Shown: positions 6,260 to 52,767 of the stretch, piece after piece
Position numbering within the stretch: position 1 is the stretch's first letter
How the letters are laid out: each line of letters starts with the position of its first letter
Source of the DNA: Paludibacteraceae bacterium
GTDB taxonomy: Bacteria; Bacteroidota; Bacteroidia; Bacteroidales; Paludibacteraceae
NCBI GenBank assembly: GCA_905233375.1
Contig: CAJOEJ010000006.1
Location: 1-64,000 of the forward strand
Direction of reading: 5' to 3'
DNA length: 64,000 nucleotides
Made by a program: the position numbers and the translations under genes
Notes under the pieces: model-generated
Told to the model about the DNA's origin: nothing
Database searches by the model: none
The model's input: the letters and a program-made list of their open reading frames with translations, nothing else

Positions 6260-7832
6260 TGTACACGCGCAGGATTATCAGGCAACGCGGCGGGCAGACG
6301 ACTGCATCGCCATCTTCAACGATGTGTTGCGGCAGGTCGATGTCAACTATGTGGATACGCTCAATTACGAAGACCTGACGGAAACGGCGATCGATGCGAT
6401 GCTGCGCCGGATAGACCCCTATACGGTTTATTATCCCAAGAAGAACGACCGTGACCTGCGTATGCTCACGACCGGCAAGTACGGCGGTATAGGCAGTATA
6501 ATCCAGCAACGGCCGTTGAAAACGGAAAACGGAAAACGGAAAACGAAGGTGTCCAAAGACAGTCTGGCTACGTACGCCGTGAACCCGTACGAAGGCAAGC
6601 CGGCGCAGCGTGCAGGCGTGCAGGCGGGGGACCGTATTCTGTCCGTCAACGGGGTCAGTACCAAAGGGCAGAGCGTGAGCGAGGTGAGCAATAACCTGCG
6701 CGGCGTGCCCGGTACTACCGTCGTGTTGGAACTGGAGCGCGAAGGAGTGGACAAACCTTTCACCGTCTCCATCGTCCGCGAAGACATCCATCTGGATGCC
6801 GTCAGCTATTATACCGTCTTCCAGGCGGACACGCTCTCCGAGCCGGTCGGGTATATCTCCTTCAGCGAGTTTACCGAAGGGTCGGCACAAGCGTTCAGCA
6901 ATGCCCTGGATGACCTCTACTATATGCGCGGGGCACGCAAACTCATCATGGACCTCCGCGGCAACGGAGGAGGTATCGTCGATGAGGCGCTGCAGATAGT
7001 GAACCTGTTCGTCGAAGAGGGGCAGACGGTGGTGGAGACCAAAGGCAAGACCGCCAACAGTTTCCGTACCTACAAGACGCGCAACACGCCGCGGTACAAA
7101 GACCTGCCGCTCATCGTCCTCGTCGATAAGAACTCCGCCTCCGCCAGCGAGATCGTCTCGGGCGCCTTGCAGGACTTGGGACGCGCCACGCTCATCGGGC
7201 AGCGTACGTACGGAAAAGGACTCGTGCAGAACGTGCGACCCGTGGTACAAGGCGGACACCTCAAAGTGACCACCAGCAAGTACTACCTGCCTTCAGGACG
7301 ATGCATTCAGGCGATCGATTATAGCGAGCGGCAGAAAGGACACGAACTCAAACGCGATACTGCCGGAGGCATTCTGCCGGATATCGTCCTCACCGACTCG
7401 GCGAAGGTGGATATCACCTATTCGCTCTATATCAACCACTATTTCTTCGACTACGCCACGCGCTTCCACCGCCTGCATGACAGCATAGCCGAGCCTGCGG
7501 TGTTTGAGGTGACGGATGAGATAATAGCGGATTTCTGCAATTACCTGGACGAACGCGGATTTGAATACGAGACGGAGACGAGCAAGTATTTCAACGACAT
7601 GATCAAGATGGCGAAGAACGAAGACCTTGATGCCACGGTCTTGGCGCAGCTGGAGGCGCTCAAACCGATCCTTACACCGGATTTCCGGGAAGCGATCAAC
7701 CGCAATATGGACGAGGTGAAGAGTCTCTTGGGGTCCGAGATCGTGCTGCGTTACTACTACCAGCGCGGGCAGGCGTCTTACAACCTCCGCTTCGACGACG
7801 AACTCAAACGTGCGTTGAAAGAATTCAAATAA
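6216..7832 (+). CDS. C-terminal processing peptidase, S41 family (CtpA/Tsp-like)
   Basis: 538 aa. Signal peptide MEKTLATLFLILCVSVHAQ, so periplasmic. After an N-terminal region (TVYYPKKNDRDLR) comes a PDZ domain (EGKPAQRAGVQAGDRILSVN, residues about 125-190), then the S41 core: KLIMDLRGNGGGIVDEA, the catalytic Ser in KNSASASEIVSGALQ and the Lys in RTYGKGLVQ. Such proteases clip or degrade periplasmic proteins from their C-termini. Between the first part and the PDZ domain is a repeat-encoded insert (PLKTENGKRKTKV) from four GAAAACG units at 6518-6545. The ATG lies inside the end of coaD, so translation is probably coupled. Confidence 0.92.
   Translation: MEKTLATLFLILCVSVHAQDYQATRRADDCIAIFNDVLRQVDVNYVDTLNYEDLTETAIDAMLRRIDPYTVYYPKKNDRDLRMLTTGKYGGIGSIIQQRPLKTENGKRKTKVSKDSLATYAVNPYEGKPAQRAGVQAGDRILSVNGVSTKGQSVSEVSNNLRGVPGTTVVLELEREGVDKPFTVSIVREDIHLDAVSYYTVFQADTLSEPVGYISFSEFTEGSAQAFSNALDDLYYMRGARKLIMDLRGNGGGIVDEALQIVNLFVEEGQTVVETKGKTANSFRTYKTRNTPRYKDLPLIVLVDKNSASASEIVSGALQDLGRATLIGQRTYGKGLVQNVRPVVQGGHLKVTTSKYYLPSGRCIQAIDYSERQKGHELKRDTAGGILPDIVLTDSAKVDITYSLYINHYFFDYATRFHRLHDSIAEPAVFEVTDEIIADFCNYLDERGFEYETETSKYFNDMIKMAKNEDLDATVLAQLEALKPILTPDFREAINRNMDEVKSLLGSEIVLRYYYQRGQASYNLRFDDELKRALKEFK
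6518..6545 (+). repeat. In-frame heptamer repeat (GAAAACG)x4 inside the S41 peptidase gene
   Basis: Four perfect 7-nt units encode about 9 residues of a Lys/Thr/Arg-rich linker just before the PDZ domain. The insert lies in a region that should tolerate extra residues. Confidence 0.85.
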
Positions 7833-7842
7833 ACTAAAGCAA

Positions 7843-7876: not shown

Positions 7877-7884
7877 CCACCAAT

Positions 7885-10869: not shown

Positions 10870-11799
10870 TTAATATTTGTCAACTTTTTCTTGCTTTTGG
10901 CACACAAATAGCCCTAAAATGATTACAACCATTCCGATCCACTTGGCTGCCGGCAAGTGTTCCCCGAAGAAGAGGAACATCCACAGCGCCGTGAAAGCGG
11001 GACGGATATTATTGAACGCATTCGCCTGCGTGACACCGATCTGACGCAAGGCATAGCAGAACAGGATGAACGCTATCACGCTCGCAAAAACAGTCAGGTA
11101 CCCCACGCACCAAAGCGCCGTAACAAATTGTCCATTGTCCATTGTCCATTGTCCATTGTCGAAGACTTGTGGTCCTTCCTTCACGAACCAGATCGGAAGG
11201 AAGAACATCAGGCTGACCAGTTGCGTATAGAATACGAACGAGAGCGCGCTATACCGCACGGGCGCTTTGCGCATCATGATCGAGTCGATGACGGCTGCCG
11301 AGACGGCTGCAAACGCTAACAGAAAGCCCCAATAACTGCCGATCGAATAGTCGGTGCTGCCTACCAGACTCAGCACGAACACTCCCAAAGAGGAGATGAT
11401 GATACCGATGATGTTGTTGCGTGTCACGCGTTCGCGCAGCAGTACCGCCGCGAAGACCGGACTCAGCAACGGGCTGGTGGAGAGCAGCGTTTCGGCGATA
11501 GTGGGGCTGTTGAGCGCATCGTACGTAAACGTCTCCAACAGGTAGTACAGAAAAGGCTGGCAGAAACCGGCGATCAGGAACAACGGTACGTCTTTCCACT
11601 CTAAGCGTTGCAGACAGAACAGCGAATGATTCCGGCGCACCAGACCCACGACGAGCATCAACAGCACCGCCGGAACGAACCGCATCACGATCATCGTGAA
11701 CGGAGGCAGAACGATCAGGGCATGCTTGATAGCAATACCGCTCACCGACCAGATGATCATCGAGACGATGAGGGCGATTATAGGAAGGGACTTCTTCAT
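10870..11799 (-). CDS. DMT-superfamily (EamA) permease
   Basis: 309 aa, about ten predicted helices in two EamA halves (MIIWSVSGIAIKHAL; LLALQ-like second half with VFASVIAFILFCYALRQIGV). It probably exports small metabolites; the substrate is unknown. The ATG at 11799 has GAGG 7 nt upstream and is preferred over the in-frame ATG at 11811. Between helices of the two halves the protein reads FDNGQWTMDNGQFV. This comes from a 33-nt TTGTCCA heptamer array (11128-11160), an insertion of 11 codons in a loop. It lies 19 nt after the acyltransferase gene. Confidence 0.85.
   Translation of the reverse strand: MKKSLPIIALIVSMIIWSVSGIAIKHALIVLPPFTMIVMRFVPAVLLMLVVGLVRRNHSLFCLQRLEWKDVPLFLIAGFCQPFLYYLLETFTYDALNSPTIAETLLSTSPLLSPVFAAVLLRERVTRNNIIGIIISSLGVFVLSLVGSTDYSIGSYWGFLLAFAAVSAAVIDSIMMRKAPVRYSALSFVFYTQLVSLMFFLPIWFVKEGPQVFDNGQWTMDNGQFVTALWCVGYLTVFASVIAFILFCYALRQIGVTQANAFNNIRPAFTALWMFLFFGEHLPAAKWIGMVVIILGLFVCQKQEKVDKY
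11128..11160 (-). repeat. In-frame heptamer repeat (TTGTCCA)x4.7 inside the DMT permease gene
   Basis: A perfect 7-nt tandem array of 33 nt, exactly 11 codons, encoding an Asp-Asn-Gly-Gln-Trp-Thr-Met type repeat in a loop. Confidence 0.9.
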
Positions 11800-11818: not shown

Positions 11819-12703
11819 TTAGATCGAGCTCGGCCAGGTATTGTGTTCGATTCCCGCTAAACGACATATCGTTGCGTGTGTTTCATTCAACAAGCGTTCG
11901 GTCTCTGCCGCCCGGGGCTTGCTCGTGTCAGGGAAGATAGGCGCGCCGATGACTACCTGCACCAGAGGCTCCTCTTTAGGACCGAACAGGCGGTAGATAC
12001 CCGTTCTCGGACGGTAAGTGACCGCGAAAGGCAGGAGCGGTTTGTTGTATTTGTACGACATCGTGAACGCTCCTTTCTGGAACGGGCGCAAGGGCTTGTA
12101 CCAGTTCCACCGTTTGGCTTCCGGGAAGATATGGAACCAGTATCCTAATTCGTTGTACTGGTCAAACGCGGCGTTGAAGGCTTTCATGGCGCTCAGTCCC
12201 GCAGACGCTTCGGGAATGGGTATTCCACCCACAATACGCAGGAAAAACTGGTCTTTGGTCTTGAAGTTGGGCGCGAACATCGGGATACGCGTGTGGTACG
12301 AGGCATGGAAAGTGGTCAGCACGGACGCGCAGTCATGGCGGTAGCAGTGGTTGGCTACCGTGATCGCCCCACGGCTCATGTCAAACTGCTTGAGCCAGCG
12401 ACGCACGCTGCATGAACTGCGGTGCCAGCGCTTTTCGCCTTCGATGCGCCAGCGCAGTCCGTATTTGAAACGCAAGAGCCATCCTAACGGACGCAGAATG
12501 AACAGGTAGCCTAAGAACATGAACCGTTTGTTGCGGGGGGACTCGTCGAAATACGGATAGTTGGCATCCACTTCCTGAAAATCGCGGTCATACACAGGTT
12601 TGTACAAACCTACATAGGGATCATCCTCCGGATACTCCGTCGTCACCGGGGGAACATACGTCCCGGGACTGACTTTCAAATCGTTATATCGTTTGTTTTC
12701 CAT
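11819..12703 (-). CDS. Lysophospholipid acyltransferase family protein
   Basis: 294 aa. Catalytic motif VANHCYRHDCASV is a true HX4D; HIFPEAKRWNWYKPLRPFQK supplies the second block and KPLLPFAVTYRP the PlsC-like third block. A hydrophobic segment near residues 62-80 (FMFLGYLFILRPLGWLL) may anchor it. It probably acylates a lysophospholipid or related glycolipid. This is the second such enzyme in the window (the other is at 4770-5801), and the two differ in motif spacing. The first in-frame ATG is at 12701-12703; the 12704-12740 upstream tract is a TCTTCAA heptamer array. Confidence 0.8.
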   Translation of the reverse strand: MENKRYNDLKVSPGTYVPPVTTEYPEDDPYVGLYKPVYDRDFQEVDANYPYFDESPRNKRFMFLGYLFILRPLGWLLRFKYGLRWRIEGEKRWHRSSCSVRRWLKQFDMSRGAITVANHCYRHDCASVLTTFHASYHTRIPMFAPNFKTKDQFFLRIVGGIPIPEASAGLSAMKAFNAAFDQYNELGYWFHIFPEAKRWNWYKPLRPFQKGAFTMSYKYNKPLLPFAVTYRPRTGIYRLFGPKEEPLVQVVIGAPIFPDTSKPRAAETERLLNETHATICRLAGIEHNTWPSSI

Positions 12704-12770
12704 TATCAATTTTCAATCTTCAATCTTCAATCTCCAATTCTCCTCCCTTGAGGGGAGGTCGGGAGGGGTT
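12704..12770. repeat. Heptamer tract plus GC-rich palindrome between acyltransferase and HAD genes
   Basis: 12704-12737 is a degenerate TCTTCAA 7-nt array. 12738-12770 is a copy of the GC-rich palindrome (CTCCTCCCTTGAGGGGAGG, then TCGGGAGGGGTT) ending 1 nt before the HAD stop codon. Two different repeat families are joined end to end here. Confidence 0.85.
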
Positions 12771-16680: not shown

Positions 16681-16731
16681 AGGTCAATTACCAATAACAA
16701 ATCACCAATTACAAATTACCAATAACCAATT
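16681..16731 (+). repeat. Heptamer repeat tract between rpe and comEC
   Basis: An array of degenerate 7-nt units of the CCAATAA / CCAATTA class fills the gap after rpe. The same class recurs at 24850-24893, 44305-44353 and 46600-46640. Confidence 0.8.
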
Positions 16732-18060: not shown

Positions 18061-20679
18061 TTATCGTTCGAAAAGACGTAGTAACTTCATCTTTGTCTTT
18101 CCGGCTTCGCCGGTGTAGGGATGCTCGCGCAAGGGCAGATTGAAATGCGTATGTCCTCGCAGGACGGTCTGCGGGTGAGTGAACTCGCGGAAACCCCATT
18201 CGCCGTGGTACGCACCCATTCCGGAGTGTCCTGTGCCGTTGAACGGTACTCCTTTGACCATCATGTGGATACACACCTCGTTGATGCACCCGCCGCCAAA
18301 CTGCTGTGTCTGCATGACGCGGTTCGCCCAACGCATATTGCGCGTGAAGAGGTACATCGCTAATGGGTGCTCGCGGTCGGCGATGACATCCATGAGCGCA
18401 TCGACCTCTGCATCTTTGAACGGCACGACAGGCAATAACGGGCAGAAGAGCTCGTGCTGCACAACAGGTTCGTCGATAGCCACGGGATAGATGATCGTCG
18501 GGGCATATTTGCGGTTTGTCTTGTCTCCCGTGCCGCCAAACACGATACGGTCGCGGTACTCGTCCGCCAGTTTGGCGCACTTGTCGTACGCGGCATCGGT
18601 GATCAGTTTCGGGTATTCGGGATTAAGTTCACCCTGTTGACCTATTTGCGCCATGAAAGCGGCTTTCAGTTCCGCGATAAACTGGTCTGCAACTTCTTCG
18701 GCAACGGCTATCTGGTTGATATTGATACATATCTGTCCGGCATTGAGCAGTTTGAAGAAAGCGATCTTGCGTGCTGCGTCTTTGAGGTCGGCATCTGCCC
18801 GTACGACACACCAGTTACCCGTCTCGCCGCCCAGTTCAAGTGCTACCGGCGTGAGGTTCCTGGCGGCTTCCGCTAACACATGTTTGCCTACCGCCGGACT
18901 ACCGGTATAGAAGATCTTGTCAAACCGTTGCGCCAGACACATGTCTGCTACGTCATGTCCGCCGTCAATAAGCGTGATATACTCCGGCGGGAAGACCTCC
19001 GCGAAGAATTTCTTGAGTGCCGCAGTACTGGCGGCTGACTTGGAGCTCGACTTGATGACGATCGTGTTTCCTCCGCACATCGCTGCGGCTACGACGCCTA
19101 TCGTCAGCAGGATGGGGAAGTTAAACGGACTAATGACGAGCGTCACGCCGTAAGGCATCTTATAGACTTTCGTGAAGATGCTGGGCCAGCACATCAGACC
19201 GCTGAAATGGATCTCCGGCCGGCTCCAACGGCGCAAACCCGATATCATCTCGTTCACCTCAACGATGATAGGTCCTATATCGCACAGATAGGCTTCCAGT
19301 TCACTTCTGCCGAGATCTTCGTGCAGTGCCCCGATCAACTCGTCCTGATGCGCCATCACGGCTTCTTTGAGGCGCTTGAGCTGTTTGATGCGCCATGCAA
19401 CGGGCAAGGTCTCGCCCGTGCGGAAGAAACGCCGTTGTGCCGCTACTATCTCACTGATCCGTTCATTCGTCCATTCGTTCACCCCTTCATCCTTTACCGT
19501 CACGACGTCCAGCACGGCTTTTATATCCGCGTTACTGAGCGTGACGGGGGCGGAGTAGTTGATGGAATCAGCAGCAATCATCGGAATCAGTTGTTCGTGG
19601 TCGCAAGCGCGTACCGGCGATGCAATCTTGTCCATTCCGCACGTTTCCAGCAATTCCCGCACGGCTTGCAGAAAATCCGGTACGCCGCAGTAACGCGCCA
19701 ATTCGGCGTATTTCTCCATACATTCCTCTTTCTGGAACTCCAGTACGGGCAAGAGCATCAGAGAGATAGCTTGTCCGTGCGAGAGATGGTACATGGCACC
19801 TATACTGTGTGCAAAAGCGTGTACGTATCCCGCCAGTTGGGTGTTGATGGCATTGCCTCCGTACATCGCCGCTTTCGCCATATTCAGCCGCGCCTCTTCC
19901 TTTGTATAGTGGACATTGTCCCTTTGTACATCCATCAGGATGGGGAGGTTTTCCAGAATGAGCTTGACCCCTTCAAAGGACATTTGTACATCGTCTTTCG
20001 AACATTGTACATCCGCCACGGCGCCTTCGATACAATGACTCAGCGCGTCGATACCGCACGCGGCAGTAACGGCTTTGGGAGCATGGATGGTCAGCTCGCT
20101 GTCGTGAACCACGTGCGTCACTTTCAGACCGATCAGGACGGTCGAACCCTTAGCGCCGTGGTCGTTGGTCACTACCGCACCTACGGTCAGTTCGGCTCCT
20201 GTTCCCGCGGTGGAGGGAACCATGATCAGCGGTAGCGTCTCGCCGGGCACGGGCAGGAACTTCAGCAACAGCGCTTTCACCGGCACATGCGGCATCTTGC
20301 AACCCGCGGCAATCATCTTGCAGCTGTCCATTACCGACCCGCCGCCCAGTGCGATAATTGCTTCTGATTTGGTCTCCAGTGCCAACTCGCGTCCCGCTTC
20401 AATGATGGCAATCGTCGGCTCGGAATGAATGTCGCAGAAGAGCGAAGCGTGTACTCCCGCCTCTTTCAACGACTCCAATATAGCCTCGTCATAACCCAGA
20501 CGGTGCAGCGTCTCGTCGGTCACTACGAGCACCTGCTTGTAGCCCGCTTTCTTGCACATCTCGCCGATAGCACGGCGTGCCCCTTGTCCGTCTGTCACTT
20601 CCGGTTCAGGTAGCGGAATAGCGTGTATCACTTTGCCCGGCAACCGGTGAATCTGTTTTCTGAATTGATATGTATCCAT
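18061..20679 (-). CDS. Fused iron-type alcohol dehydrogenase and aldehyde dehydrogenase (ADH-ALDH order)
   Basis: 872 aa. Residues 1 to about 395 are a group III Fe-ADH: ALGGGSVMDSCKMIAAG, VPSTAGTGAELTVGAVV, metal-binding GIDALSHCIEGA and YVHAFAHSIGAMYHLSHGQA. Residues about 415-872 are an ALDH3-like aldehyde dehydrogenase: ISPFNFPILLTIG, ALELGGE (E615), NAGQIC (C651) and GHSGMGAYHGEWGFREF. The order is the reverse of AdhE. The join (nt about 19457-19490) is repeat-like sequence encoding DEGVNEWTNERISE. Two heptamer inserts lie in the ADH part (19908-19938, 19981-20013). It probably interconverts an alcohol and its acid. The ATG overlaps the mutT stop by one base. Confidence 0.88.
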   Translation of the reverse strand: MDTYQFRKQIHRLPGKVIHAIPLPEPEVTDGQGARRAIGEMCKKAGYKQVLVVTDETLHRLGYDEAILESLKEAGVHASLFCDIHSEPTIAIIEAGRELALETKSEAIIALGGGSVMDSCKMIAAGCKMPHVPVKALLLKFLPVPGETLPLIMVPSTAGTGAELTVGAVVTNDHGAKGSTVLIGLKVTHVVHDSELTIHAPKAVTAACGIDALSHCIEGAVADVQCSKDDVQMSFEGVKLILENLPILMDVQRDNVHYTKEEARLNMAKAAMYGGNAINTQLAGYVHAFAHSIGAMYHLSHGQAISLMLLPVLEFQKEECMEKYAELARYCGVPDFLQAVRELLETCGMDKIASPVRACDHEQLIPMIAADSINYSAPVTLSNADIKAVLDVVTVKDEGVNEWTNERISEIVAAQRRFFRTGETLPVAWRIKQLKRLKEAVMAHQDELIGALHEDLGRSELEAYLCDIGPIIVEVNEMISGLRRWSRPEIHFSGLMCWPSIFTKVYKMPYGVTLVISPFNFPILLTIGVVAAAMCGGNTIVIKSSSKSAASTAALKKFFAEVFPPEYITLIDGGHDVADMCLAQRFDKIFYTGSPAVGKHVLAEAARNLTPVALELGGETGNWCVVRADADLKDAARKIAFFKLLNAGQICININQIAVAEEVADQFIAELKAAFMAQIGQQGELNPEYPKLITDAAYDKCAKLADEYRDRIVFGGTGDKTNRKYAPTIIYPVAIDEPVVQHELFCPLLPVVPFKDAEVDALMDVIADREHPLAMYLFTRNMRWANRVMQTQQFGGGCINEVCIHMMVKGVPFNGTGHSGMGAYHGEWGFREFTHPQTVLRGHTHFNLPLREHPYTGEAGKTKMKLLRLFER
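19457..19490 (-). repeat. Repeat-like linker at the ADH/ALDH junction
   Basis: CATTCGTC / CATTCGTT units in tandem encode the linker between the two enzyme domains. They resemble the short tandem repeats found between genes elsewhere in the window. Confidence 0.6.
19908..20013 (-). repeat. Two heptamer inserts in the Fe-ADH domain
   Basis: 19908-19938 and 19981-20013 contain WTTGTMC-class 7-nt units (ATTGTCC, TTTGTAC, ATTGTAC) read as MDVQRDNVHYTKEE and ADVQCSKDDVQMS. They lie on either side of a helix after the metal-binding motif, probably in loops. Confidence 0.75.
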
Positions 20680-24849: not shown

Positions 24850-24893
24850 TTATATTGGTGAATGGTTATTGGTAATTGGTTATTGGTGATTTA
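24850..24893. repeat. Heptamer tract (TTATTGG class) between truA and the flippase
   Basis: 7-nt units TTATTGG, TAATTGG, TTATTGG in tandem. The tract runs over the stop codon of the flippase (24880-24882), so the stop lies within repeat sequence. Confidence 0.8.
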
Positions 24894-28883: not shown

Positions 28884-28920
28884 AAAACTAATTTACAATT
28901 TACAATGTACAATGTACAAT

Positions 28921-30357: not shown

Positions 30358-30370
30358 AAATCTTCAATCT

Positions 30371-31039: not shown

Positions 31040-31224
31040 AATCAATTTAGAATGGAGAATTCTGAATTTAGAAAGGGCTATTTAAGTTGAGTGCTAAATA
31101 TAAAGATTCGTACGGCTATTGAAGTTGGATACCAAACTCATAGAATCCGAACCAACTTAAAACGTTGCACATAAGTCAATAGGACGCTTTCTTAATTCTC
31201 AATTCATAATTCTTAATTCTTCAT

Positions 31225-31854: not shown

Positions 31855-31886
31855 ACTTTGTACATTGTACTTTGTCCCTTTGTACA

Positions 31887-34489: not shown

Positions 34490-34513
34490 CTTCCAATCTT
34501 CAATCTTCAATCT

Positions 34514-35044
34514 TCAATTATCAAACAGCGTGTCCAGCACGCTCACTTCTGTTTGCCACGGATGTTGGTCGGTCCATATCTGTCCGCTCCAATCCGTGGA
34601 ACGTTCTGCATGCTGCCCCGGCAGGACGGATGGTCTTTGTTTGTTCAGCAAGCTCACCAACGTCGCATTCAGTTCGTCATTCAAATCCAGCAACCATTTG
34701 TACTCTTTTTCGTAAAACGGTTTGAGGTAGTCCGCGAAATATAGGAAATAGGGCGTGTGCTGGTATGTACTGACGAGTGTGATCCAATGCTGGTGTTGCC
34801 AGCGGGTCTGATAGCTGATCTCTATATCCCGCGTCAACTGCTTGTGCTCCACTTTCTTCACCGGTACGGTCAGCCGGATCCAATCATCCTTTGTCCCTTG
34901 TACCTTGTCCCTTTGTACCTTAATGAGGCATCGGTTGCGGAACGTCTGTTTCTCAAACGTCTCCATCTGTTCGATCGTAGCCGGTTCGCTCATCAGCGCT
35001 TCCATATACGACCTCGGCGGCAGATATGCAGTGGGTAATACCAT
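34514..35044 (-). CDS. WbqC-like family protein
   Basis: 176 aa. VLPTAYLPPRSYMEALM, FRNRCLIKV, LTVPVKKVEHKQLTRDIEIS and HTPYFLYFADYLKPFYEKEY match the WbqC-like family, whose members sit in LPS or glycan gene sets but have no proven activity. An in-frame heptamer insert (nt 34890-34922) is read as KVQRDKVQGTKDD, in a spot where relatives normally run straight on. It lies between lepB and ilvE with 12 and 24 nt gaps. Confidence 0.8.
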   Translation of the reverse strand: MVLPTAYLPPRSYMEALMSEPATIEQMETFEKQTFRNRCLIKVQRDKVQGTKDDWIRLTVPVKKVEHKQLTRDIEISYQTRWQHQHWITLVSTYQHTPYFLYFADYLKPFYEKEYKWLLDLNDELNATLVSLLNKQRPSVLPGQHAERSTDWSGQIWTDQHPWQTEVSVLDTLFDN

Positions 35045-35056: not shown

Positions 35057-36475
35057 CTATCTTCCTGTTGCTTTGCGTCCGAGCCGATTCCAGCGAATCT
35101 TGTGGCGGTCCTTGTCTATACTCAGCCAGATGAACACCGGTCGTCCGACAATGTGGTCCTCCGGCACGAAACCCCAGTAGCGGCTGTCCGCCGAGTTGTG
35201 CCTGTTGTCGCCTTGCATCCAGTAGTAGTCCATCCCGAACTCGTACTCCTCACCAATGGTCATCGGTTTGAACTCGTACGCCTCCGCGATGCGCTTATAG
35301 ACAGGGTAGTTCTCCTCCGTGATCAGCAATCGGTCGCCTTTTCGGGGGATATAGATGGGTCCGTAGTTGTCCCTCGTCCATTCGTTCTGTCCCAGCGGAT
35401 AGACGCTGCCACCCAATGCATCGTTTTCAATCTGAACAGCCAACACATGCGGGTTGTGCTCCAACTCCTCTTTCATCGCCTTGGTCAGCGGAAAATGCCA
35501 CACGTCGCTTCGAACCTGCTGGCGGTCGGCTACGCTGATACCGATTTTCTCCAGGTACTTGGCGCTGAACAAGTGTCCGTCCGTCTGTACGAAATAGTTG
35601 AGTTGCACTCCTTCGCGTTCCGGCTCACGCTGCCATCCGTCCTTTGTCCTTTGTCCTTTGTCCCTTTGTCCTTTCGTCCATACGACATTGTCTATGATCC
35701 GCAAGCTGTCTCCCGGTTCGCCCACGCAGCGTTTGACGTAGTTCTCGCGGCGGTCCACAGGACGTACACGCAAGCGTTTGAGGTCGCCCGGTGTCACACC
35801 GTAGTACTTCAACACGCCCGGTCCCTGCGTCTCCATCAGGTAACGGATCGTGTAGTAGTCCGGCGATTCACACCCGACGATGACCGTATCGCCCGCAGGG
35901 AAATTGAACACCACGATATCCCCTTTCTGCGGACTCGTCCAGCCTTTGAGACGCTTGTAGTCCCAATGCGGGTGGTCGAAATAACTCTTTCCTCCGCCGA
36001 GCCATCCCGGCATCGTGTGCTGTACCAGCGGCATCGACAACGGGGTTTGCGGCACACGCGCACCGTACGCCATCTTGCTCACATACAGGAAATCACCGAC
36101 CCGCAGACTCTTCTCCAGACTCGAACTCGGAATCTGGTAGTTCTGGAAAATATACAGGTTGATGAAATACACCGCCACGAGCGCAAACACGATCGCGTCT
36201 ATCCATGAAAACAAGGTGTATAAAACCGCATTTCCTTTCTCCCCTCCATTAAGGGAGGGGTCGGGGGTAGGCTTATATTTTCTCCACCAGCTATAGTTGA
36301 TATACTTCGTCGTAAACGCGTCGATGATAAGCGGCAGGAGAACGAGCCAGCCCAGGCTCTTCCAGTCTCCCCATGCGACCCAAATAACGAATGCCACATA
36401 TACCGCACTCCAAATACCTGCGCGGATCCAACCGCCGCGCGTCACTTCTGCTAATCTATCTTGAAAACTTTTCAT
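35057..36475 (-). CDS. lepB: Signal peptidase I
   Basis: 472 aa, long as in Bacteroidetes. N-terminal membrane segments (IWSAVYVAFVIWVAWG; IDAIVFALVAVYFINLYIF), then the catalytic Ser in YQIPSSSLEKSLRVGDFLYV, the Lys in ENYVKRCVGEPGDSLRI, and the C-terminal box YWMQGDNRHNSADSRYWGFV. It cleaves signal peptides of exported proteins. Two repeat inserts are visible: KPTPDPSLNGGEKGN from the GC-rich palindrome (36239-36274), and KGQRDKGQRTKDGWQ from a TTTGTCC heptamer array (35641-35677), the latter between the catalytic Lys and the C-terminal box. ATG 36475 precedes the first membrane segment. Confidence 0.94.
   Translation of the reverse strand: MKSFQDRLAEVTRGGWIRAGIWSAVYVAFVIWVAWGDWKSLGWLVLLPLIIDAFTTKYINYSWWRKYKPTPDPSLNGGEKGNAVLYTLFSWIDAIVFALVAVYFINLYIFQNYQIPSSSLEKSLRVGDFLYVSKMAYGARVPQTPLSMPLVQHTMPGWLGGGKSYFDHPHWDYKRLKGWTSPQKGDIVVFNFPAGDTVIVGCESPDYYTIRYLMETQGPGVLKYYGVTPGDLKRLRVRPVDRRENYVKRCVGEPGDSLRIIDNVVWTKGQRDKGQRTKDGWQREPEREGVQLNYFVQTDGHLFSAKYLEKIGISVADRQQVRSDVWHFPLTKAMKEELEHNPHVLAVQIENDALGGSVYPLGQNEWTRDNYGPIYIPRKGDRLLITEENYPVYKRIAEAYEFKPMTIGEEYEFGMDYYWMQGDNRHNSADSRYWGFVPEDHIVGRPVFIWLSIDKDRHKIRWNRLGRKATGR
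35641..35677 (-). repeat. In-frame heptamer array (TTTGTCC) in lepB
   Basis: Five units of TTTGTCC or near variants in tandem, read on the minus strand as Lys-Gly-Gln-Arg-Asp repeats. Confidence 0.9.
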
Positions 36476-36575: not shown

Positions 36576-37319
36576 TTATTGTTTTAATTCTTCCGCTGCC
36601 AGTACCGCTCCTAACGCAAAACCCCTTCTTCCTTTTGCAATATGCGTAATAACGATCGTATCTTCTTCGCTGTCCCAAGTCACCACATGCGTCCCCGGCA
36701 CTTCACCCTCACGGATCGATTCAATGGGAATCCCTTCCCCCTCTCCTGTGGAGAGGGTCGGGGAGAGGTTCTCTATTTCTTCCGCTAATGTTTTTGCTGT
36801 ACCGCTGGGTTTGTCGAGTTTGTGAATATGGTGGGTCTCGGTGATAGAAGGCGTGTACTGAGGTTGGTTTTTCATCGCCGCGGCTAACTCTTTGTTGAGC
36901 TCGAAGAATATATTGACCCCTACGGAGAAGTTACTGCTCCAAACGAGCATCGTTTTGCCCGTCTTACTATCCACGATGATGGTTTTGTTAGCCTGACTTC
37001 TTAATTCATAATTCTTAATTCTTAATTCTTCCGGCTTCCACCCCGTCGTCCCGCAAACAACGGGCACGCCTTGCGCCCATGCGCGCAAAATATTGTCCTT
37101 TGCCGTCGCCGGCGTGGTGAACTCAATCGCCACGTCCGCACTACGAAACGCCTCACTGTCAAAATCAATAGAATGGGGATATTCCTTTGTACCTTGTACA
37201 TTGTCCCTTTGTACATTAAGTAGGGGCTCTATGATTCCGACAATCTCGTGTCCGCGTTCCAGGGCAATGGCTTCGACCATATGCCCCATTTTTCCATATC
37301 CGATAAGTGCTATTTTCAT
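36576..37319 (-). CDS. dapB: 4-hydroxy-tetrahydrodipicolinate reductase, with three repeat inserts
   Basis: 247 aa. Reduces the DapA product with NAD(P)H in lysine/DAP synthesis. Motifs: IALIGYGKMGHMVEA, AIEFTTPATAKDNI, VCGTTGW, SSNFSVGVNIFFELNK, TETHHIHKLDKPSGTA and the C-terminal RRGFALGAVLAAEEL. Three inserts interrupt it: LNVQRDNVQGTKEY (heptamers 37185-37216), ELRIKNYELRSQ (TTCTTAA heptamers 36997-37030) and NLSPTLSTGEGEG (GC-rich palindrome 36731-36772). All catalytic motifs survive between them. ATG 37319 is the start, about 75 nt after the predicted transcription start. Confidence 0.94.
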   Translation of the reverse strand: MKIALIGYGKMGHMVEAIALERGHEIVGIIEPLLNVQRDNVQGTKEYPHSIDFDSEAFRSADVAIEFTTPATAKDNILRAWAQGVPVVCGTTGWKPEELRIKNYELRSQANKTIIVDSKTGKTMLVWSSNFSVGVNIFFELNKELAAAMKNQPQYTPSITETHHIHKLDKPSGTAKTLAEEIENLSPTLSTGEGEGIPIESIREGEVPGTHVVTWDSEEDTIVITHIAKGRRGFALGAVLAAEELKQ

Positions 37320-39737: not shown

Positions 39738-39759
39738 ATATGAAGTTGTTTTTCGGGTG

Positions 39760-40011: not shown

Positions 40012-40027
40012 TTTTTTGGGTGAAATG

Positions 40028-40142
40028 TGGGTAAAAGATAGGGGGGAGGAAAGATAGGGGGGAGATGGGGAGGAGGATGTGAGAGAGATGGGAGGGAAGG
40101 GTGAGGACTGGAGGAAAAAAGGAAGATGTCGGGAGGTCCCGA
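40028..40142 (+). other. Purine-rich tract with many G runs (possible G-quadruplex)
   Basis: On the plus strand this stretch is almost all A and G, with G runs of six at 40041-40046 and 40057-40062, four at 40067-40070 and three at 40090-40092, 40094-40096 and 40099-40101. It lies in a 500-bp gap between two minus-strand transcription units and codes for nothing convincing. Confidence 0.7.
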
Positions 40143-43839: not shown

Positions 43840-44526
43840 TTATAATTGTGCGGAGAGATAGTTCAGGATTTGGTCAGCTAAGGATTCGATGGAAGCGAGG
43901 CCGTCGTTGTTAATTAGCAGGTCGCCTGTGTGCGGGTGTTGCGTGCGTATGCGGGCGCGAACCTTTTCTATATTGGCAGTGGTGTTGAGGTCGTGGAAGT
44001 CGCGGGCAATGACACGGGCTATACGGATTTCTTCGGGGGCGTCGATGACGATGATACGATCGCAGAGGGTATCGAAGCCGGACTCATAGAGGATGGCGGA
44101 TTCGAGGAATAAGACCGGCTCCGCCTGACAGACCGCTTTCAGGTGTGACCCAGACCGCTTTGCTGATAGACCGCTTCGCTGACAGATATCTTCTTTGACG
44201 GCGGGATGAATAATAGCATTGAGGGCGTCCAGAACCCCTCCCGACCTCCCCTCAAGGGAGGAGGAAAAGACACGTTGCGCGACATAGGAGGTGTTATAGA
44301 TTATAGATTGGTCATTGGTTATTGTTGATTGGTCATTGGTGGTTGCTGATTGGATGAACGCTTCTTCGCCGAGGAGGGCGATGATGGCGGCTCGGACATC
44401 GGGGTTTTCGACGATGATCCGTTTGGCTTCGCGGTCGCAATCATAGACCGTATAACTCCGTCTGGCGAGTTCCCGCGCAATGGTGGATTTGCCGCTTCCT
44501 ATGCCTCCTGTGATGCCGATTATCAT
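43840..44526 (-). CDS. coaE: Dephospho-CoA kinase with repeat inserts
   Basis: 228 aa against a usual 195-205. Phosphorylates dephospho-CoA, the last step of CoA synthesis. P-loop GITGGIGSGKST, then YDCDREAKRII, NAIIHPAVK, VLFLESAILYESGFD and VIVIDAPEE-type strand (IIVIDAPEEIRIARVIARD). The extra length is three repeat inserts: ATTNDQSTITNDQS (heptamers 44305-44353), FSSSLEGRSGGVLD (GC-rich palindrome 44233-44265) and CQRSGLSAKRSGSHL (tandem CAGACCGCTTT units, 44128-44185). The motifs lie between them, so the enzyme is probably active. Confidence 0.93.
   Translation of the reverse strand: MIIGITGGIGSGKSTIARELARRSYTVYDCDREAKRIIVENPDVRAAIIALLGEEAFIQSATTNDQSTITNDQSIIYNTSYVAQRVFSSSLEGRSGGVLDALNAIIHPAVKEDICQRSGLSAKRSGSHLKAVCQAEPVLFLESAILYESGFDTLCDRIIVIDAPEEIRIARVIARDFHDLNTTANIEKVRARIRTQHPHTGDLLINNDGLASIESLADQILNYLSAQL
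44128..44185 (-). repeat. CAGACCGCTTT tandem units in coaE
   Basis: Four spaced copies of CAGACCGCTT(T/C) with GCTGA tails, read in frame as Ser-Gly-Leu-Ser-Ala-Lys-Arg-Ser-Gly. A class distinct from the heptamers. Confidence 0.75.
44233..44265 (-). repeat. GC-rich palindrome inside coaE
   Basis: Read on the minus strand as SSLEGRSGGV. The same DNA at 44993-45025 is read in another frame as NPSPPLRGGREGF in the MBOAT gene. Confidence 0.9.
44305..44353 (-). repeat. Heptamer tract (TCATTGG / TTATTGT class) in coaE
   Basis: 7-nt units such as TCATTGG and TTATTGT in tandem, read as TNDQSTITNDQS. Confidence 0.85.
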
Positions 44527-44601
44527 AGTTGATAGATGAAAGTTTAAAGTTTAAAGAAGTCGTTTAGTTGATAGTTTATAGTTGATAGTTAAAAAGGATC
44601 A

Positions 44602-46602
44602 TTAGAACTGGAAATAGATGAAGGGTTGCATCTCGGCGGAGACGAACTGATAGATGACGATGATCGCTATACACACGGCTGTCACCATGAGCCATAAAGG
44701 CATCGCGCTAAAGGCAAGGCGGTATCTGCGTTTCCAATTAGTCGGCAGCCAGTGAATGACCATGCCGGCAATGAACATCGCCACGACCCATCGGTACTCC
44801 CAAAGGAAATCCGGGATGATGGCATTGCTCCACGCTCCACCGATCTGGTTCACCATATTCTTCGCGGTCTCCCATGCCACTTCGTTCGCCGTGGCGGGAT
44901 CGAGGTTGCTGCTGGAACGGAAGAACAGACGCGTGAAAGTGATGAAGGTGAAGGTCTGGAGAATCGCCCAAGCTTGGGAAAGCTTATTTGGGAACCCCTC
45001 CCGACCTCCCCTCAAGGGAGGAGAAGGATTGGTCTTTTGGTCTTTTGTCAAGAGCCAGTAGATATAGCGGATGGCGGTACCGAACCATATGACCGCAGCC
45101 CAGACGGCGAACAGACGCCAGACGGGCAGGTGATACGTATAATCGAGTGCGCAAAGTCCCATCGTGAGTGCCGTCATGGAGGCAAAGCGCACATGCCAGT
45201 TCATCCTGCGCCATATTTTCTCCACGATCATTCCGATGCCGTTGATTCCGCCCCATATGATGAAGTTCCAACTGGCACCGTGCCATAAACCGCCCAAGAC
45301 CTGCGTGATGAAGGAGTTTAAATTTGCGTAAAGCAATTTAAGACCGCCTACTCCCAACCTCTCCCTAAAGGGAGCGGAGTTCACTATGGCTACCACTATC
45401 ATGAAGACCGCAAAAGGTATCAGTATCCATAGCCACCAGCCGGTGAGGGCGGCAGAGACGAGGGCGATCAGCGATAGCCAGAAATACGTTCCGAATCCGA
45501 TTTTCCTGTTTCCGCCCAGCGGGATATACAGGTAGGTCTTGAGCCATCGTCCGAGGGACATATGCCACCTCCGCCAGAACTCCTGCGGGCTTTGGGACTT
45601 GTAGGGGCTGTTGAAGTTCATCGGCAGGTAGAAGCCCATGAGCATGGCGACGCCGATAGCGATGTCCGTATAACCGGAGAAGTCGGCGTAGACCTGCAGG
45701 GAGTAGGCGAAGAGCGCAAACAGGTTCTCGAAACCCGAGAAGAGCAGCGGGTTGTTGAACACGCGGTCGATGAGATTCACCGCCAGGTAGTCCGACATGA
45801 TGATTTTCTTCGCCAAGCCGTTCAGTATCCAGAACACCGCCACGCCGAACCACCTTCGGCTCAGATGGTAGGGTTTGTATAACTGCGGAATGAACTCCTC
45901 CGCGCGCACGATAGGACCGGCGACCAACTGCGGGAAGAACGAGACGTAGAAGCCGAAGTCCAATATGTTCCTGACCGGCTGGATGCGTCCCCGGTACACG
46001 TCCGCCGTATAAGAGATGACCTGAAAAATGAAGAACGAGATACCCACCGGCAGCACGATCGTATCGACGCTGAACCGTCCTGCGTCGGCAAAACCGTTTC
46101 CTATGTACGCGAAGATATCGAATACGCGGAAACCGGTACCAAACAGGTCGTTGATCAGGTTCGTGAAGAAATAGGCGTACTTGAAATAGGCGAGCAGACC
46201 GAGGTCGATGATCACGGACAGTGCCAATAGGAGAGTGGGGATTGGTGATTGGTGATTGGAGATTTGTGATTTTTTGATCTGCTGTGCGATGAGCCAATCC
46301 GAGAGCGTGACGAAAGCCAGGATGAGCAGGAACAAACCGCTGGTCTTGTAGTAGAAGAACCAACTGACGAAGAGGAGATAGAGGTTACGCAAATGTAATT
46401 TGCGATTGGTTATTGGTGATTTATGGATGCCCTTCTCGGCGGAGGCCGCTCCTCCCGTTTGTCGGGAGGACGCTCCGGGGAATTCCAGAATCAAGGTATA
46501 TAACGCGAAGACCAAAGCAAAGAACGCCCAGAAATAGAACTGGGTGAAGAGCAACGGGCTGTTCTCGTCAAATGCCAATATGTGGTGAAGGAAGGAGGTC
46601 AT
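44602..46602 (-). CDS. MBOAT family O-acyltransferase (AlgI-like)
   Basis: 666 aa, about ten or more membrane helices. AlgI/MBOAT motifs: LPVGISFFIFQVISYTADVY, FPQLVAGPIVRAEEFIPQL, DFSGYTDIAIGVAMLMGF, FWRRWHMSLGRWLKTYLYIP and the catalytic His in GGLWHGASWNFIIWGG. It transfers acyl groups, usually acetyl, across the membrane onto an envelope glycan. At least four repeat inserts lie in loops: HKSPITNRKLH (near 46404-46423), SQISNHQSPIPT (46240-46272), NPSPPLRGGREGF (44993-45025) and RERLGVGGLKLL (45346-45375). The partner SGNH protein gene is 24 nt upstream. Confidence 0.9.
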   Translation of the reverse strand: MTSFLHHILAFDENSPLLFTQFYFWAFFALVFALYTLILEFPGASSRQTGGAASAEKGIHKSPITNRKLHLRNLYLLFVSWFFYYKTSGLFLLILAFVTLSDWLIAQQIKKSQISNHQSPIPTLLLALSVIIDLGLLAYFKYAYFFTNLINDLFGTGFRVFDIFAYIGNGFADAGRFSVDTIVLPVGISFFIFQVISYTADVYRGRIQPVRNILDFGFYVSFFPQLVAGPIVRAEEFIPQLYKPYHLSRRWFGVAVFWILNGLAKKIIMSDYLAVNLIDRVFNNPLLFSGFENLFALFAYSLQVYADFSGYTDIAIGVAMLMGFYLPMNFNSPYKSQSPQEFWRRWHMSLGRWLKTYLYIPLGGNRKIGFGTYFWLSLIALVSAALTGWWLWILIPFAVFMIVVAIVNSAPFRERLGVGGLKLLYANLNSFITQVLGGLWHGASWNFIIWGGINGIGMIVEKIWRRMNWHVRFASMTALTMGLCALDYTYHLPVWRLFAVWAAVIWFGTAIRYIYWLLTKDQKTNPSPPLRGGREGFPNKLSQAWAILQTFTFITFTRLFFRSSSNLDPATANEVAWETAKNMVNQIGGAWSNAIIPDFLWEYRWVVAMFIAGMVIHWLPTNWKRRYRLAFSAMPLWLMVTAVCIAIIVIYQFVSAEMQPFIYFQF
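44993..45025 (-). repeat. GC-rich palindrome inside the MBOAT gene
   Basis: Nearly identical to the copies at 7843, 12738 and 44233, here in a cytoplasmic or periplasmic loop of the MBOAT protein and in a different reading frame from coaE. Confidence 0.9.
46240..46272 (-). repeat. Heptamer tract (GATTGGT) inside the MBOAT gene
   Basis: GATTGGT, GATTGGT, GATTGGA, GATTTGT in tandem, read as SQISNHQSPI. Another shorter tract of the same class is at 46404-46423. Confidence 0.88.
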
Positions 46603-46690
46603 TGGTTATTGGTCATTGGTTATTGGTTATTGGTTATTGGGCATTTGTACCTCATCCTTTGTACTTTGTACTTTGTCACTTTGTACTTTA
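46600..46690. repeat. Compound heptamer tract between MBOAT and SGNH genes
   Basis: TTATTGG / TCATTGG units run from 46600 to 46640, followed by WTTGTMC-class units (TTTGTAC and relatives) to about 46690. The SGNH stop codon (46627-46629) lies inside the array, so its last 20 residues (SKVQSDKVQSTKDEVQMPNN) are repeat-encoded. Confidence 0.9.
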
Positions 46691-48012: not shown

Positions 48013-48074
48013 CTGATTGATTTACAATTTACAATGTACAATGTACAAAGGATTATAGAAGCATGATATTTTTT

Positions 48075-50857: not shown

Positions 50858-52767
50858 AATCCTTCTTTATCGAGTTTTAACAGATGATATAATTCTTTTG
50901 TGCTTCCATGCTCGACGAACCGGTCGTTCACGCCCAGCCGGATGACACGCGGCGTGTATCCGTGATCCGCCATCCATTCGAGTACGGCGCTGCCCAATCC
51001 TCCGGCTGTCATGCCGTCTTCGGCGGTGATGATGGTACGGAAATGCTGACCCGCTTCGTGCAGGATGGTTTCGTCCATCGGCTTCAACCAACGCATGTCG
51101 TAATGAGCAATGCCGCCTTTGTACATTGTACTTTGTCCCTTTGTCACTTCCTCAATGGCTTCGCTCATGGTGTTGCCGATGGCTCCGATGGTCAGGACGG
51201 CGATGTCTTTGCCGTCACGCAGCTTCACGCCTTTGCCGTATTCGACCTGTGTACTTTCCTCTTGTGCATCCGGTGTGCGTCCCCGCGGGTAGCGGATGGC
51301 AACGGGTCCTTCGATCGTTCCGGCTAAGGTCATCATCTGCCGCAAGTCTTCGGCGGTACGCGGGGCGCAGATCTGCATGTTTGGTATCGGTCGCAGGTAC
51401 GCGAGGTCGAGTAACCCGTGATGCGTGGCGCCGTCGTTGCCCACAATACCCGCGCGGTCAATACACAAGACCACATGCAGGTTCTGCAGTGCCACATCGT
51501 GGACGATATTGTCGTATGCCCGTTGCAGGAAGGTGGAGTAGATATTGCAGTAGGGCATCATGCCGGCTTTGGCGAGTCCGGCGCTGAAAGTAACGGCGTG
51601 CCCTTCGGCGATACCGACATCGAACACGCGGTCAGGCAGCTCTTTCTGCATGATGCTCATGGAGCAACCCGAGGGCATCGCCGGAGTGATACCCACTATT
51701 TTCTCATTCCCCTTCGCCAACTCTAACAGCTTCTCTCCGAACACCTCCTGCCATAACGGCGGTATATCCTTTGTACGTTGTACATCGTCACTTTGTACAT
51801 CAACGGAACGAAGTCCCGTCTCCACGTCAAACTCTCCCGGAGCATGCCAAACGGTCTGGTCGTTCTCCGCCGGGGCGTATCCTTTGCCTTTCTTCGTGAT
51901 GATATGCAGCACTTTGGGACCGCGGTGGTTCTTGATCTCGCTCAATATACGTACCAATCCTTCCACATCGTGTCCGTCGGTAGGACCGAAATAGCGGATG
52001 TTGAGACCCGTGAAGATATTGCTCGGCTGCTTGCTCAGTACGGCTTTGAGGCTGTTGTTGCGCCGGAGGATAGCACGTCTCTTGCGCTCGTCCACCAGGT
52101 GCATTTTCGCTGCCAGCTGATACAGCCGCCATCTCCATTTGTTGTACGTCTGGCTGGTCGTCAGGTCCACGAGGTACTGCGTGAAACCGCCCTTGAGCGG
52201 GTCGATCGCCATGTGGTTGTCGTTGAGCACGATGAGCAGGTTGTTCTTGTCCATCGAGGTGTTGTTCAACCCCTCGAATGCGAGTCCGCCGGTCATCGCT
52301 CCGTCGCCGATAATGGCTACTACATTCCGTTGGACGTGGTCCTTTGTCCTTTGTCCTTTGTCCCTTTGTACATTTGCAATCTCGATTCCCAGCGCCGCTG
52401 AAATCGAGTTGCTGGCGTGTCCGGCGATGAACGCATCGTACTCGCTCTCCGCCGGATTGGTGAACGGACTCAGCCCTTTGAACTGACGGTTCGTATGGAA
52501 ACGGTCACGACGACCTGTGAGGATCTTGTGCGCGTATGCCTGATGTCCCACATCCCATACCAGCTGGTCGTTCGGCGTGTCGAATACATAGTGCAAAGCC
52601 ACCGTCAGTTCGATCGCTCCTAACGACGAACCTAAATGCCCGGGGTTCTTGCTCAGCGCCTCGATGATGAACTGGCGCAACTCCGCACAGACGGATGGCA
52701 GTTCCTCCACCTTCAACTTCTTCAAGTCCGCCGGCGAGTCAATATGATTTATATAGTTATAATCCAT
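50824..52767 (-). CDS. dxs: 1-deoxy-D-xylulose-5-phosphate synthase with three heptamer inserts
   Basis: 647 aa. Condenses pyruvate and glyceraldehyde-3-phosphate in the first MEP-pathway step. ThDP motif VVAIIGDGAMTGGLAFEGLN with NDNHMAID; transketolase regions GHLGSSLGAIELTVALHYVF, VGHQAYAHKILTGRRD and PSGCSMSIMQKELPDRVFDV, and C-terminal VIRLGVNDRFVEHGS. Inserts: NVQRDKGQRTKDHVQRN (52333-52378) just before the ThDP motif, SVDVQSDDVQRTKDIPP (51768-51800) and TKGQSTMYKGGIAH (51113-51150). ATG at 52767 is the start. Confidence 0.95.
   Translation of the reverse strand: MDYNYINHIDSPADLKKLKVEELPSVCAELRQFIIEALSKNPGHLGSSLGAIELTVALHYVFDTPNDQLVWDVGHQAYAHKILTGRRDRFHTNRQFKGLSPFTNPAESEYDAFIAGHASNSISAALGIEIANVQRDKGQRTKDHVQRNVVAIIGDGAMTGGLAFEGLNNTSMDKNNLLIVLNDNHMAIDPLKGGFTQYLVDLTTSQTYNKWRWRLYQLAAKMHLVDERKRRAILRRNNSLKAVLSKQPSNIFTGLNIRYFGPTDGHDVEGLVRILSEIKNHRGPKVLHIITKKGKGYAPAENDQTVWHAPGEFDVETGLRSVDVQSDDVQRTKDIPPLWQEVFGEKLLELAKGNEKIVGITPAMPSGCSMSIMQKELPDRVFDVGIAEGHAVTFSAGLAKAGMMPYCNIYSTFLQRAYDNIVHDVALQNLHVVLCIDRAGIVGNDGATHHGLLDLAYLRPIPNMQICAPRTAEDLRQMMTLAGTIEGPVAIRYPRGRTPDAQEESTQVEYGKGVKLRDGKDIAVLTIGAIGNTMSEAIEEVTKGQSTMYKGGIAHYDMRWLKPMDETILHEAGQHFRTIITAEDGMTAGGLGSAVLEWMADHGYTPRVIRLGVNDRFVEHGSTKELYHLLKLDKEGLCESLLQALEK
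51113..51150 (-). repeat. Heptamer tract in dxs, C-terminal
   Basis: TTTGTAC, ATTGTAC, TTTGTCC and TTTGTCA units, read in frame as TKGQSTMYKGG. Confidence 0.88.
51768..51800 (-). repeat. Heptamer tract in dxs, middle
   Basis: TTTGTAC, GTTGTAC, ATCGTCA, TTTGTAC units between the two large domains, read as DVQSDDVQRTKD. Confidence 0.88.
52333..52378 (-). repeat. Heptamer tract in dxs, before the ThDP motif
   Basis: TTTGTCC repeated three times, then TTTGTAC; read as NVQRDKGQRTKDH. Confidence 0.88.

Follow-up and report, generated by a model that had tools for sequence, protein, structure and literature searches.

How do conserved genes come to carry tandem repeats of seven nucleotides, a length that is not a multiple of three, and keep their reading frames? 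The question is raised by a stretch of 64,000 nucleotides from a Paludibacteraceae bacterium (positions 1 to 64,000 of contig CAJOEJ010000006.1, here called the window), in which a first reading of the sequence, the original prediction, had noticed many tandem 7-mers in frame in housekeeping genes such as dxs, dapB and lepB. The contig (C6) is part of a metagenome-assembled genome (MAG) of 2.23 Mb in 47 contigs, which is 83.6% complete and is designated G000. The comparison with related genomes leads to an answer that we regard as probable: the 7-nt arrays, together with other short dispersed repeats, are spread by copying, resized by slippage, swapped by short-tract recombination and filtered by purifying selection.

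Results

An excess of tandem heptamers

Using the dxs gene of the window, 80 loci were collected from named genomes, the titles of which describe Bacteroidales or Paludibacteraceae MAGs, many of them from the rumen or other gut habitats. Loci with a dxs at least 77% identical are called genus loci (n = 66; 1.27 Mb), and loci with a dxs at most 72% identical are called outgroup loci (n = 14; 292 kb); the outgroup comparison thus covers 14 loci at most and not a wide set of distant genera. Genes are the predictions of our own simple codon-usage caller.

Perfect tandem runs with at least 12 matches at a given shift were counted, and order-2 Markov copies served as controls. In the window 14 runs had period 7, versus 4 with period 11 and none with periods 3-6, 8-10, 12 or 13, and it was thus confirmed that tandem 7-mers lead its short repeats; the arrays also lie where the original prediction had placed them. 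The excess extends to a total of 464 kb, as 400 kb more of G000 contained 33 runs of period 7 versus 6 of period 8, 4 of period 11 and none of the other periods up to 13. In the 66 genus loci period 7 was found 197 times, versus 19 times for period 8, 10 times for period 9 and 23 times for period 11, the highest of the other periods from 3 to 13. Periods 14 (100 runs), 15 (38), 21 (67) and 22 (22) were also raised, as is expected from combinations of 7-nt and 8-nt units. The Markov copies contained no perfect runs, and the 14 outgroup loci had 6 runs at period 7, 5 at period 11 and 7 at period 15.

With a mismatch-tolerant finder 111 arrays, mostly 20-100 nt long, were detected in 464 kb of G000, versus one in 358 kb of Markov sequence. 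The spectra of units varied among species, with some overlap: G000 was led by AATNACC, AATCACC and AAAGTAC, G035 by AAAAATT and AAATGGT, and G003 by AATCACC and AACCCGT. Units of arrays at different loci agreed within one mismatch in a fraction of 0.09-0.25 of the pairs, versus 0.018 for random heptamers. A pattern of three ATTGGTN units occurred 186 times in the genome of the window (reversed control: 7) and was present in 23 of 36 other genomes of the same genus; it was absent from all 24 genomes that were taken from other families of the order.

The 22 arrays of the window are distributed over gene interiors (9), gene ends (8) and intergenic regions (5). Not all arrays listed in the original prediction are in genes; those at 12704, 16681, 24850, 31190, 34491, the 44540s, 46600 and 52793 turned out to be intergenic or to lie at gene edges. 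Among the 351 arrays of five sampled genomes (280-464 kb each) 143 were internal to genes, 105 at gene edges and 103 intergenic. Genes account for 91% of the G000 sequence, but only 35 of its 111 arrays were internal. Such a strong depletion of arrays within genes would be expected if arrivals there are mostly harmful.

A composite of 33 nucleotides

Some of the arrays turned out to be copies of one composite element with the 31-nt core TTTGTACATTGTACATTGTCCCTTTGTACAT. Allowing at most 5 edits, this core was found 31 times in the 464 kb of G000, three times in 400 kb of G035 and once in 395 kb of G003, and it was missing from 400 kb of G014 and 280 kb of G007. A whole-genome search with a closely related pattern and at most two mismatches, performed with G000 and 60 further genomes of the same genus taken from a larger group, yielded 113 copies in G000 and none for the reversed control. 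Matches were present in 29 of the 61 genomes, G000 included, and the other 60 genomes had 0 to 23 copies each. Local slippage alone does not explain a spread of 113 near-copies.

An alignment of 28 ungapped copies revealed that the conserved stretch comprises 33 nt, namely two C followed by the core, with a conservation of 0.89-0.93 inside and of 0.64-0.68 just outside. It consists of units of 7, 7, 7 and 8 nt and short ends, corresponds to 11 codons and is open in all six frames. In the G000 copies core positions 8, 15, 21 and 30 are free or nearly so, and their neighbors are conserved to 0.86-1.00. These free positions seem to resemble the free seventh base of ATTGGTN, a feature of the sequences that would not be explained by plain slippage.

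Repeat positions in the window are given for the + strand unless marked otherwise, and genes carry their own strand. Composite copies were found in three of the four variable sites of dxs (50824-52767, −), i.e., site 4 (51118..51149), site 2 (51770..51800) and site 1 (52343..52373, a composite copy or TTTGTCC array), and in dapB (36576-37319, −; copy at 37186..37216). A further copy (31857..31887) lies at the 5′ end of gene 31225-31887 (−) and touches the 3′ end of gene 31887-33428 (−). A diverged copy that was read by eye and seems to be decayed (19901..19931) lies in a gene for an iron-type alcohol dehydrogenase/aldehyde dehydrogenase fusion (Fe-ADH/ALDH; 18061-20679, −). Lastly, a composite or array on the − strand (48020..48052) is located between gene 46627-47976 (−) and the TrkH gene 48075-49526 (−).

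In-frame inserts at recurring protein sites

All nine genes named in the original prediction carry an internal array or composite. In addition to three copies in dxs, the one in Fe-ADH/ALDH and the one in dapB, these are a second repeat in dapB, a TTCTTAA array (36998..37030) translated EELRIKNYELR, with one unit that deviates at the place of a TAA in the pure array; a GAAAACG array (6518..6547) in the gene for a ctpA-like S41 peptidase (6210-7832, +); an ATTGTCC array (11127..11162) in an EamA/DMT transporter gene (10870-11799, −); a TTTGTCC/TTGTACC array (34887..34913) in a WbqC-family gene (34514-35005, −); a TTTGTCC array (35636..35666) in lepB (35057-36475, −), translated KGQRDKGQRTKD; an ATTGGTN array (44306..44353) in coaE (43840-44526, −), translated QSATTNDQSTITNDQ; and an ATTGGTG array (46233..46266) in an MBOAT gene (44602-46602, −), translated SQISNHQSP. 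The coaE gene additionally contains a GACCGCTTCGCT-type dispersed repeat of a non-heptamer family (44169..44180).

An alignment of the dxs proteins of the window and of 48 of the 80 loci, nine outgroup loci among them, revealed four internal sites that differ among most species of the genus. As had been proposed, the lineage gained its inserts in frame, and the corresponding sites of relatives are either shorter or different. Residues shared with distant orthologues had been named as the observation that would speak against such a gain; these were not seen, since the nine outgroup dxs lack the inserted residues, although a separate array is present at site 3 of one outgroup locus (L084). Compared with the shortest relative, some sites had gained fewer than 33 nt, and thus native residues may be replaced. 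Several variable insert sites each were also found in dapB (28 sequences) and lepB (30 sequences), and one, at the GAAAACG array, in ctpA (30 sequences). Depending on the species, the DNA at a site was a heptamer array, a hairpin-like repeat such as CTCTCCCCGACCCTCTCC, or a GACCGGCTTCGCCTGACAGA repeat, and different inserts at shared sites were observed in dxs, dapB, lepB, coaE, the MBOAT protein and others. The heptamers form one of several classes of dispersed repeats that occupy the same protein sites. By eye, some of the non-heptamer inserts are hairpin-like.

For a quantitative analysis six of 11 genes of the window were retained as an orthologue set, and sequences truncated at contig ends or with lengths outside 0.7-1.4 times the query were dropped. 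In these six syntenic genes of about 60 genus species 18 internal sites were found at which the length varied by 6 residues or more, none of them in TrkA of the same loci. The four dxs sites contributed 114 long inserts in 63 genomes, of which 42 had period 7, 87 recurred at at least three non-orthologous places, and 91 fulfilled either definition. Site 1 was long in 45 of the 63 genomes, with 41 distinct sequences.

Altogether 553 genus inserts were analyzed. Period 7 was found in 75 of them, versus 0 for period 5, 2 for period 6, 7 for period 8, 18 for period 9 and 1 for period 10, and in none of 1110 control segments. Recurrence at at least five non-orthologous places was observed for 172 of the 553 inserts versus 21 of the 1110 controls, where the controls were segments of 42 nt and the inserts had varying lengths plus 9 nt on each side. 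In an earlier test against the five sampled genomes, 133 of 553 inserts and 11 of 1110 controls recurred at at least three places. At 17 of the 18 sites at least one insert had period 7 or was recurrent (three places). An alignment with DXS of E. coli (2o1s) had gaps at sites 1, 2 and 4, and in an AlphaFold2 model of moderate quality (mean pLDDT 71) the four dxs sites are found at helix ends and in coil. The inserts are likely to sit in loops of the housekeeping enzymes.

Frame, stop codons and orientation

Length changes between arrays of close relatives were determined with an anchor-based comparison (anchors on both sides were lacking for 49 of 228 arrays), in which 18 species pairs were read both ways and some species were shared, so that the counts are not independent. 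Within genes 58 of 58 changes were multiples of 3, a result that intact genes in both species would also give and that compares MAG consensus sequences between species; outside genes 5 of 50 were. Outside genes 18 of 29 array-to-array changes were multiples of 7. At codons where the pure array would have a stop codon the real sequence deviates in 25 of 25 cases, compared with 253 of 1283 other codons. This deviation is guaranteed by an open frame; more telling is the persistence of such arrays in variant form. In dapB, for example, TAT or TAC variants are present where the pure TTCTTAA array would have TAA.

The orientation of the composite was one-sided within genes. In three sampled genomes 21 copies within genes were antisense and none was sense, and one edge copy was also antisense, whereas in co-directional spacers six were sense and four antisense (Fisher p 0.0003 versus genes). 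As both strands are open, the fact that all copies within genes are antisense suggests selection against the hydrophobic reading. The encoded peptide was more hydrophilic than that of the opposite strand for 80 of 100 internal arrays with an open opposite frame. The patterns of frame and orientation would reflect translation and selection.

Probable exchange of inserts between genomes

Two closely related loci (L033 and L042) provide an example. Away from the sites 1350 nt of their dxs genes are 97.2% identical. Site 3, however, is occupied by a heptamer insert resembling the composite in one locus and by a GACCGGCTTCGCCTG repeat in the other, and the divergence is raised for about 15 codons on each side, with sharp edges. 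Whole-locus pairwise alignments contain misaligned stretches (for this pair, e.g., 8.4-9.9 kb) and served for the reading of examples only.

The comparison was extended to 16 pairs and five genes with sites, in which 138 site comparisons had the same and 81 had different inserts (the pair L041/L083 is absent from the dxs table, and site pairs with only tiny differences were skipped in the count of codon divergence). At conserved columns, the codon divergence next to differing sites was 0.37 within 10 codons, 0.29 at 11-20 codons and 0.18-0.23 beyond. For sites with the same insert it was 0.22 within 10 codons and 0.17-0.20 further away, at a background of 0.20. One objection, namely that the differing pairs are simply more distant, is countered by the decay of divergence with distance within this class. 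The extra divergence beside differing inserts points to short tracts of homologous recombination that would have carried the insert.

Further features of the window

The remaining arrays of the window are located between or at the edges of genes. Between genes are a TCTTCAA array (12702..12738; genes 11819-12703, −, and 12772-13377, −), an ACCAATN array (16686..16731; genes 16036-16680, +, and 16757-18019, +) and AGTTTAA and TAGTTNA arrays (44534..44592; genes 43840-44526, −, and 44602-46602, −). Spacer and gene end are covered by an ATTGGTN array (24853..24891; gene 24880-26397, −), an AATTTAC/AATGTAC array (28890..28937; gene 28921-30348, −), an AATCTTC array (30355..30382; gene 30371-31039, −) and a TTCAATC array (34492..34524; gene 34514-35005, −). 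A TTCTTAA array (31201..31225) lies directly downstream of gene 31225-31887 (−). Another ATTGGTN array (46597..46645) spans the spacer of genes 44602-46602 (−) and 46627-47976 (−), and a TTTGTAC array (46655..46676) is found near the C-terminus of the latter gene, which is GDSL-lipase-like. Upstream of dxs a TTCTTAA array (52792..52835) adjoins a NadR-like region. The NadR-like domain (52838-53306, −) is part of the frame 52830-55145 (−); this frame overlaps the opposite-strand predicted gene 53496-55163 (+) and was missed by the gene caller.

The Fe-ADH/ALDH fusion has 872 residues, with the iron-type alcohol dehydrogenase at about 42-330 followed by the aldehyde dehydrogenase at about 404-839; this domain order is the reverse of that of AdhE. 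Orthologues of the DMT transporter gene were matched in 36 of 41 genomes, and in three of them (L175, L180, L185) the match contained one in-frame stop codon each. Judged from these sequences, some species may be losing the gene by decay, or the stop may have been brought by an insert.

Other repeats were also observed. A hairpin-like CCCTTGAGGGGAGG repeat occurs in an intergenic region (12745-12758) and within a gene for a branched-chain aminotransferase (33779-33791). At 39913-40064 an 11-nt tandem repeat AATAACATAAG (9 copies) lies beside a 16-nt AAAGATAGGGGGGAGG repeat, both unlike the heptamer arrays, and a 25-nt direct repeat with two copies is found immediately upstream of dapB (37334-37382). 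Dispersed TTTGCATATATGCAAAAAAAG..GTACCTTTGC stretches are present at 39749-39809 and at many places in L195-L254; by their consensus we take them to be probably conserved Bacteroidales promoters. At gathering thresholds, the search for known structured RNAs in the window yielded nothing but a tRNA.

Discussion

A proposed mechanism of copying, resizing, swapping and filtering

The mechanism that we favor would comprise four processes. Repeats would be copied to new sites, in genes in frame at a few recurring enzyme sites; slippage would resize the arrays; short-tract homologous recombination would swap inserts between genomes; and purifying selection would keep only versions that are frame-neutral, free of stop codons and hydrophilic. 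The primary copying step would be ectopic, preferably by microhomology-primed template switching between repeats, or alternatively by a dedicated mobilizing enzyme. The original prediction had suggested slippage plus transfer. The steps of 7 nt outside genes and a spread that goes beyond slippage bear this out, and the proposal as a whole is partly supported; it missed the wider set of dispersed repeats, the dispersal of the composite as a unit and what looks like a role of short-tract recombination in part of the transfer.

Several observations weigh against this mechanism or limit its reach. Within genes only 2 of 13 array-to-array changes were multiples of 7, and thus most changes there do not look like slippage by whole units. 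With 319 of the 553 genus inserts being neither of period 7 nor recurrent at three places, and with 110 of the 1110 controls passing the three-place threshold (versus 228 of the 553 inserts), some of the variation at the sites is either ordinary or decayed beyond classification. Among 64 outgroup inserts 3 had period 7, 14 recurred at three places and 3 at five, and outgroups also vary in length at some shared sites, e.g., from 5 to 30 residues at dxs site 1. Unit similarity was higher within than between genomes in four of five species and equal in G007. No clear donor for the recombination was found with 16 tract queries, whose best matches over long stretches had an identity of about 70-92%; the best short piece reached 98% over 57 of 207 nt. 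The model of dxs is of moderate quality, and the inserts are presumably, but not certainly, translated and kept. Reading the indels of eight close pairs and the length-change examples by eye revealed neither a consistent target-site duplication nor a fixed target motif. A copying enzyme was not found in the 83.6% complete G000 when two families were sought: Y1 transposases (PF01797) had only a partial match of 32 positions below the cut-off, and reverse transcriptases (PF00078) had no match, as was also the case in G035.

Alternative explanations

Among the alternatives, mobilization of the repeats as small non-autonomous elements by a specific transposase fares best, for instance by a Y1 enzyme associated with repetitive extragenic palindromic (REP) sequences or by a helper of miniature inverted-repeat transposable elements (MITEs). 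The copy number, the sharp edges of the composite and the existence of several families recall MITEs and REPINs (REP-based elements), and Y1 matches above the cut-off are present in 12 of 41 genus genomes; G035 has one. However, it is the most composite-rich of the 61 genomes, G000, that has only the partial Y1 match, in a search that did not extend to other transposase families, and a consistent target-site duplication is lacking by eye. We regard this explanation as unlikely, and Y1 transposase and reverse transcriptase as the engine were rejected, as neither has a good match in G000 (other families were not searched).

Somewhat less probable still is local polymerase slippage only, by which arrays would have grown in place from chance seeds and shared units would reflect a shared sequence bias. 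The predominance of 7-nt steps outside genes and the higher-order periods of 14 and 21 nt are in line with it, and passages of PMC4692102 report a hypothesis in which the excess of heptamers in bacteria is linked to the stretch of DNA that the polymerase holds. However, slippage in place does not account for a composite with fixed order and one 8-nt unit that recurs 113 times in one genome, for other repeat families at the same sites, or for the similarity of units at different loci.

Ordinary drift of loop lengths in low-complexity sequence, with no mobile component, is very improbable. The large unclassified fraction of the inserts and the length variation of outgroups at some sites would fit, but the recurrence at five or more non-orthologous places far above that of the controls, the composite copies in G000 and the absence of such a site from TrkA of the same loci speak against it. 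Least probable of all is a regulatory role as binding sites or 7-nt-slippage switches of phase variation: the TAACTGA repeats of a marine Beggiatoaceae genome are mostly found just upstream of start codons (passages of PMC4679880) and heptamer length changes are common outside genes, but the arrays occur in many unrelated housekeeping genes, and phase variation within genes was rejected because 0 of the 58 in-gene length differences between species (MAG consensus) changed the frame.

Implications

If copying, resizing and swapping act as proposed, the inserts would be a continuing source of new protein segments. The origin of such segments is usually argued from single old events, whereas here many related genomes show apparent stages of the process at shared enzyme sites: some sites are still short, and others hold recent copies, arrays of altered size or exchanged segments. 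It thereby becomes possible to count how fast segments arise, how selection filters them by frame, stops, hydrophilicity and orientation, and what recombination contributes. It is tempting to go further and to speculate about a continuing cassette economy for loops, in which a copying activity scatters micro-elements such as the composite over genes and spacers, slippage resizes them and tracts of about 20 codons are traded between species; this extension is tentative and we would not bet on it. If it were true, housekeeping enzymes would gain and exchange surface segments far faster than their cores evolve. There is also a warning for trees, alignments and annotations that are built from these MAGs, as their core genes contain mobile segments.

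Comparison with known systems

A literature search, in which subscription papers were mostly beyond reach, did not reveal any earlier description of heptamers inserted in frame in genes of this genus. Three groups of known repeats are similar in part. Rickettsia palindromic elements (RPEs) comprise several dispersed families in frame in unrelated protein-coding genes (Ogata 2000, 2002, as cited in passages of PMC10969869). In-frame insertion in protein-coding genes and several families at unrelated loci were found here too. However, RPEs are about 150 bp long according to the same passages, while the composite has 33 nt and the arrays about 20-100 nt. Further differences from RPEs are the many tandem-heptamer inserts, more than 100 composite copies in one genome and the occupation of a given site by different families, depending on the species.

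Heptamer arrays in cyanobacteria are known under the name short tandemly repeated repetitive (STRR) sequences. As far as passages of the respective papers tell, indels between two Cyanothece strains are mostly in 7-nt increments (PMC4679880), and Xanthomonas and Nostoc have a strong heptamer excess (PMC4692102). STRR sequences, TAACTGA of Beggiatoaceae and GGGAATC of Xanthomonas share with the present arrays the 7-nt units, the many loci and the excess over other periods. They are described, in the passages concerned, as chiefly intergenic, whereas here 103 of 351 arrays are intergenic, 143 internal and 105 at edges, with many classes of units. For the Beggiatoaceae genome, 25 predicted proteins are described that include a repeat or overlap with one, in about half of the cases at a stop codon (passages of PMC4679880). 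A repeat of the TAACTGA type was rejected for the present case, as just one of the 111 arrays in the G000 sample had the unit AACTGAN.

REPs and REPINs are likewise very short dispersed repeats with a high copy number (passages of PMC3116915). REPs are extragenic palindromes near a RAYT gene according to this source, while the composite is found in genes and the 83.6% complete G000 has no Y1 match above the cut-off. The present repeats also recall the small dispersed repeats of Nostoc, a mobile class of very small repeats whose host genome contains heptamer arrays too. The Nostoc repeats are mentioned in passages of PMC3116915 as well. Taken together, the case combines features of RPEs, heptamer arrays and REPINs and fits none of them fully, and its scale is unusual, as the same sites are refilled across a genus.

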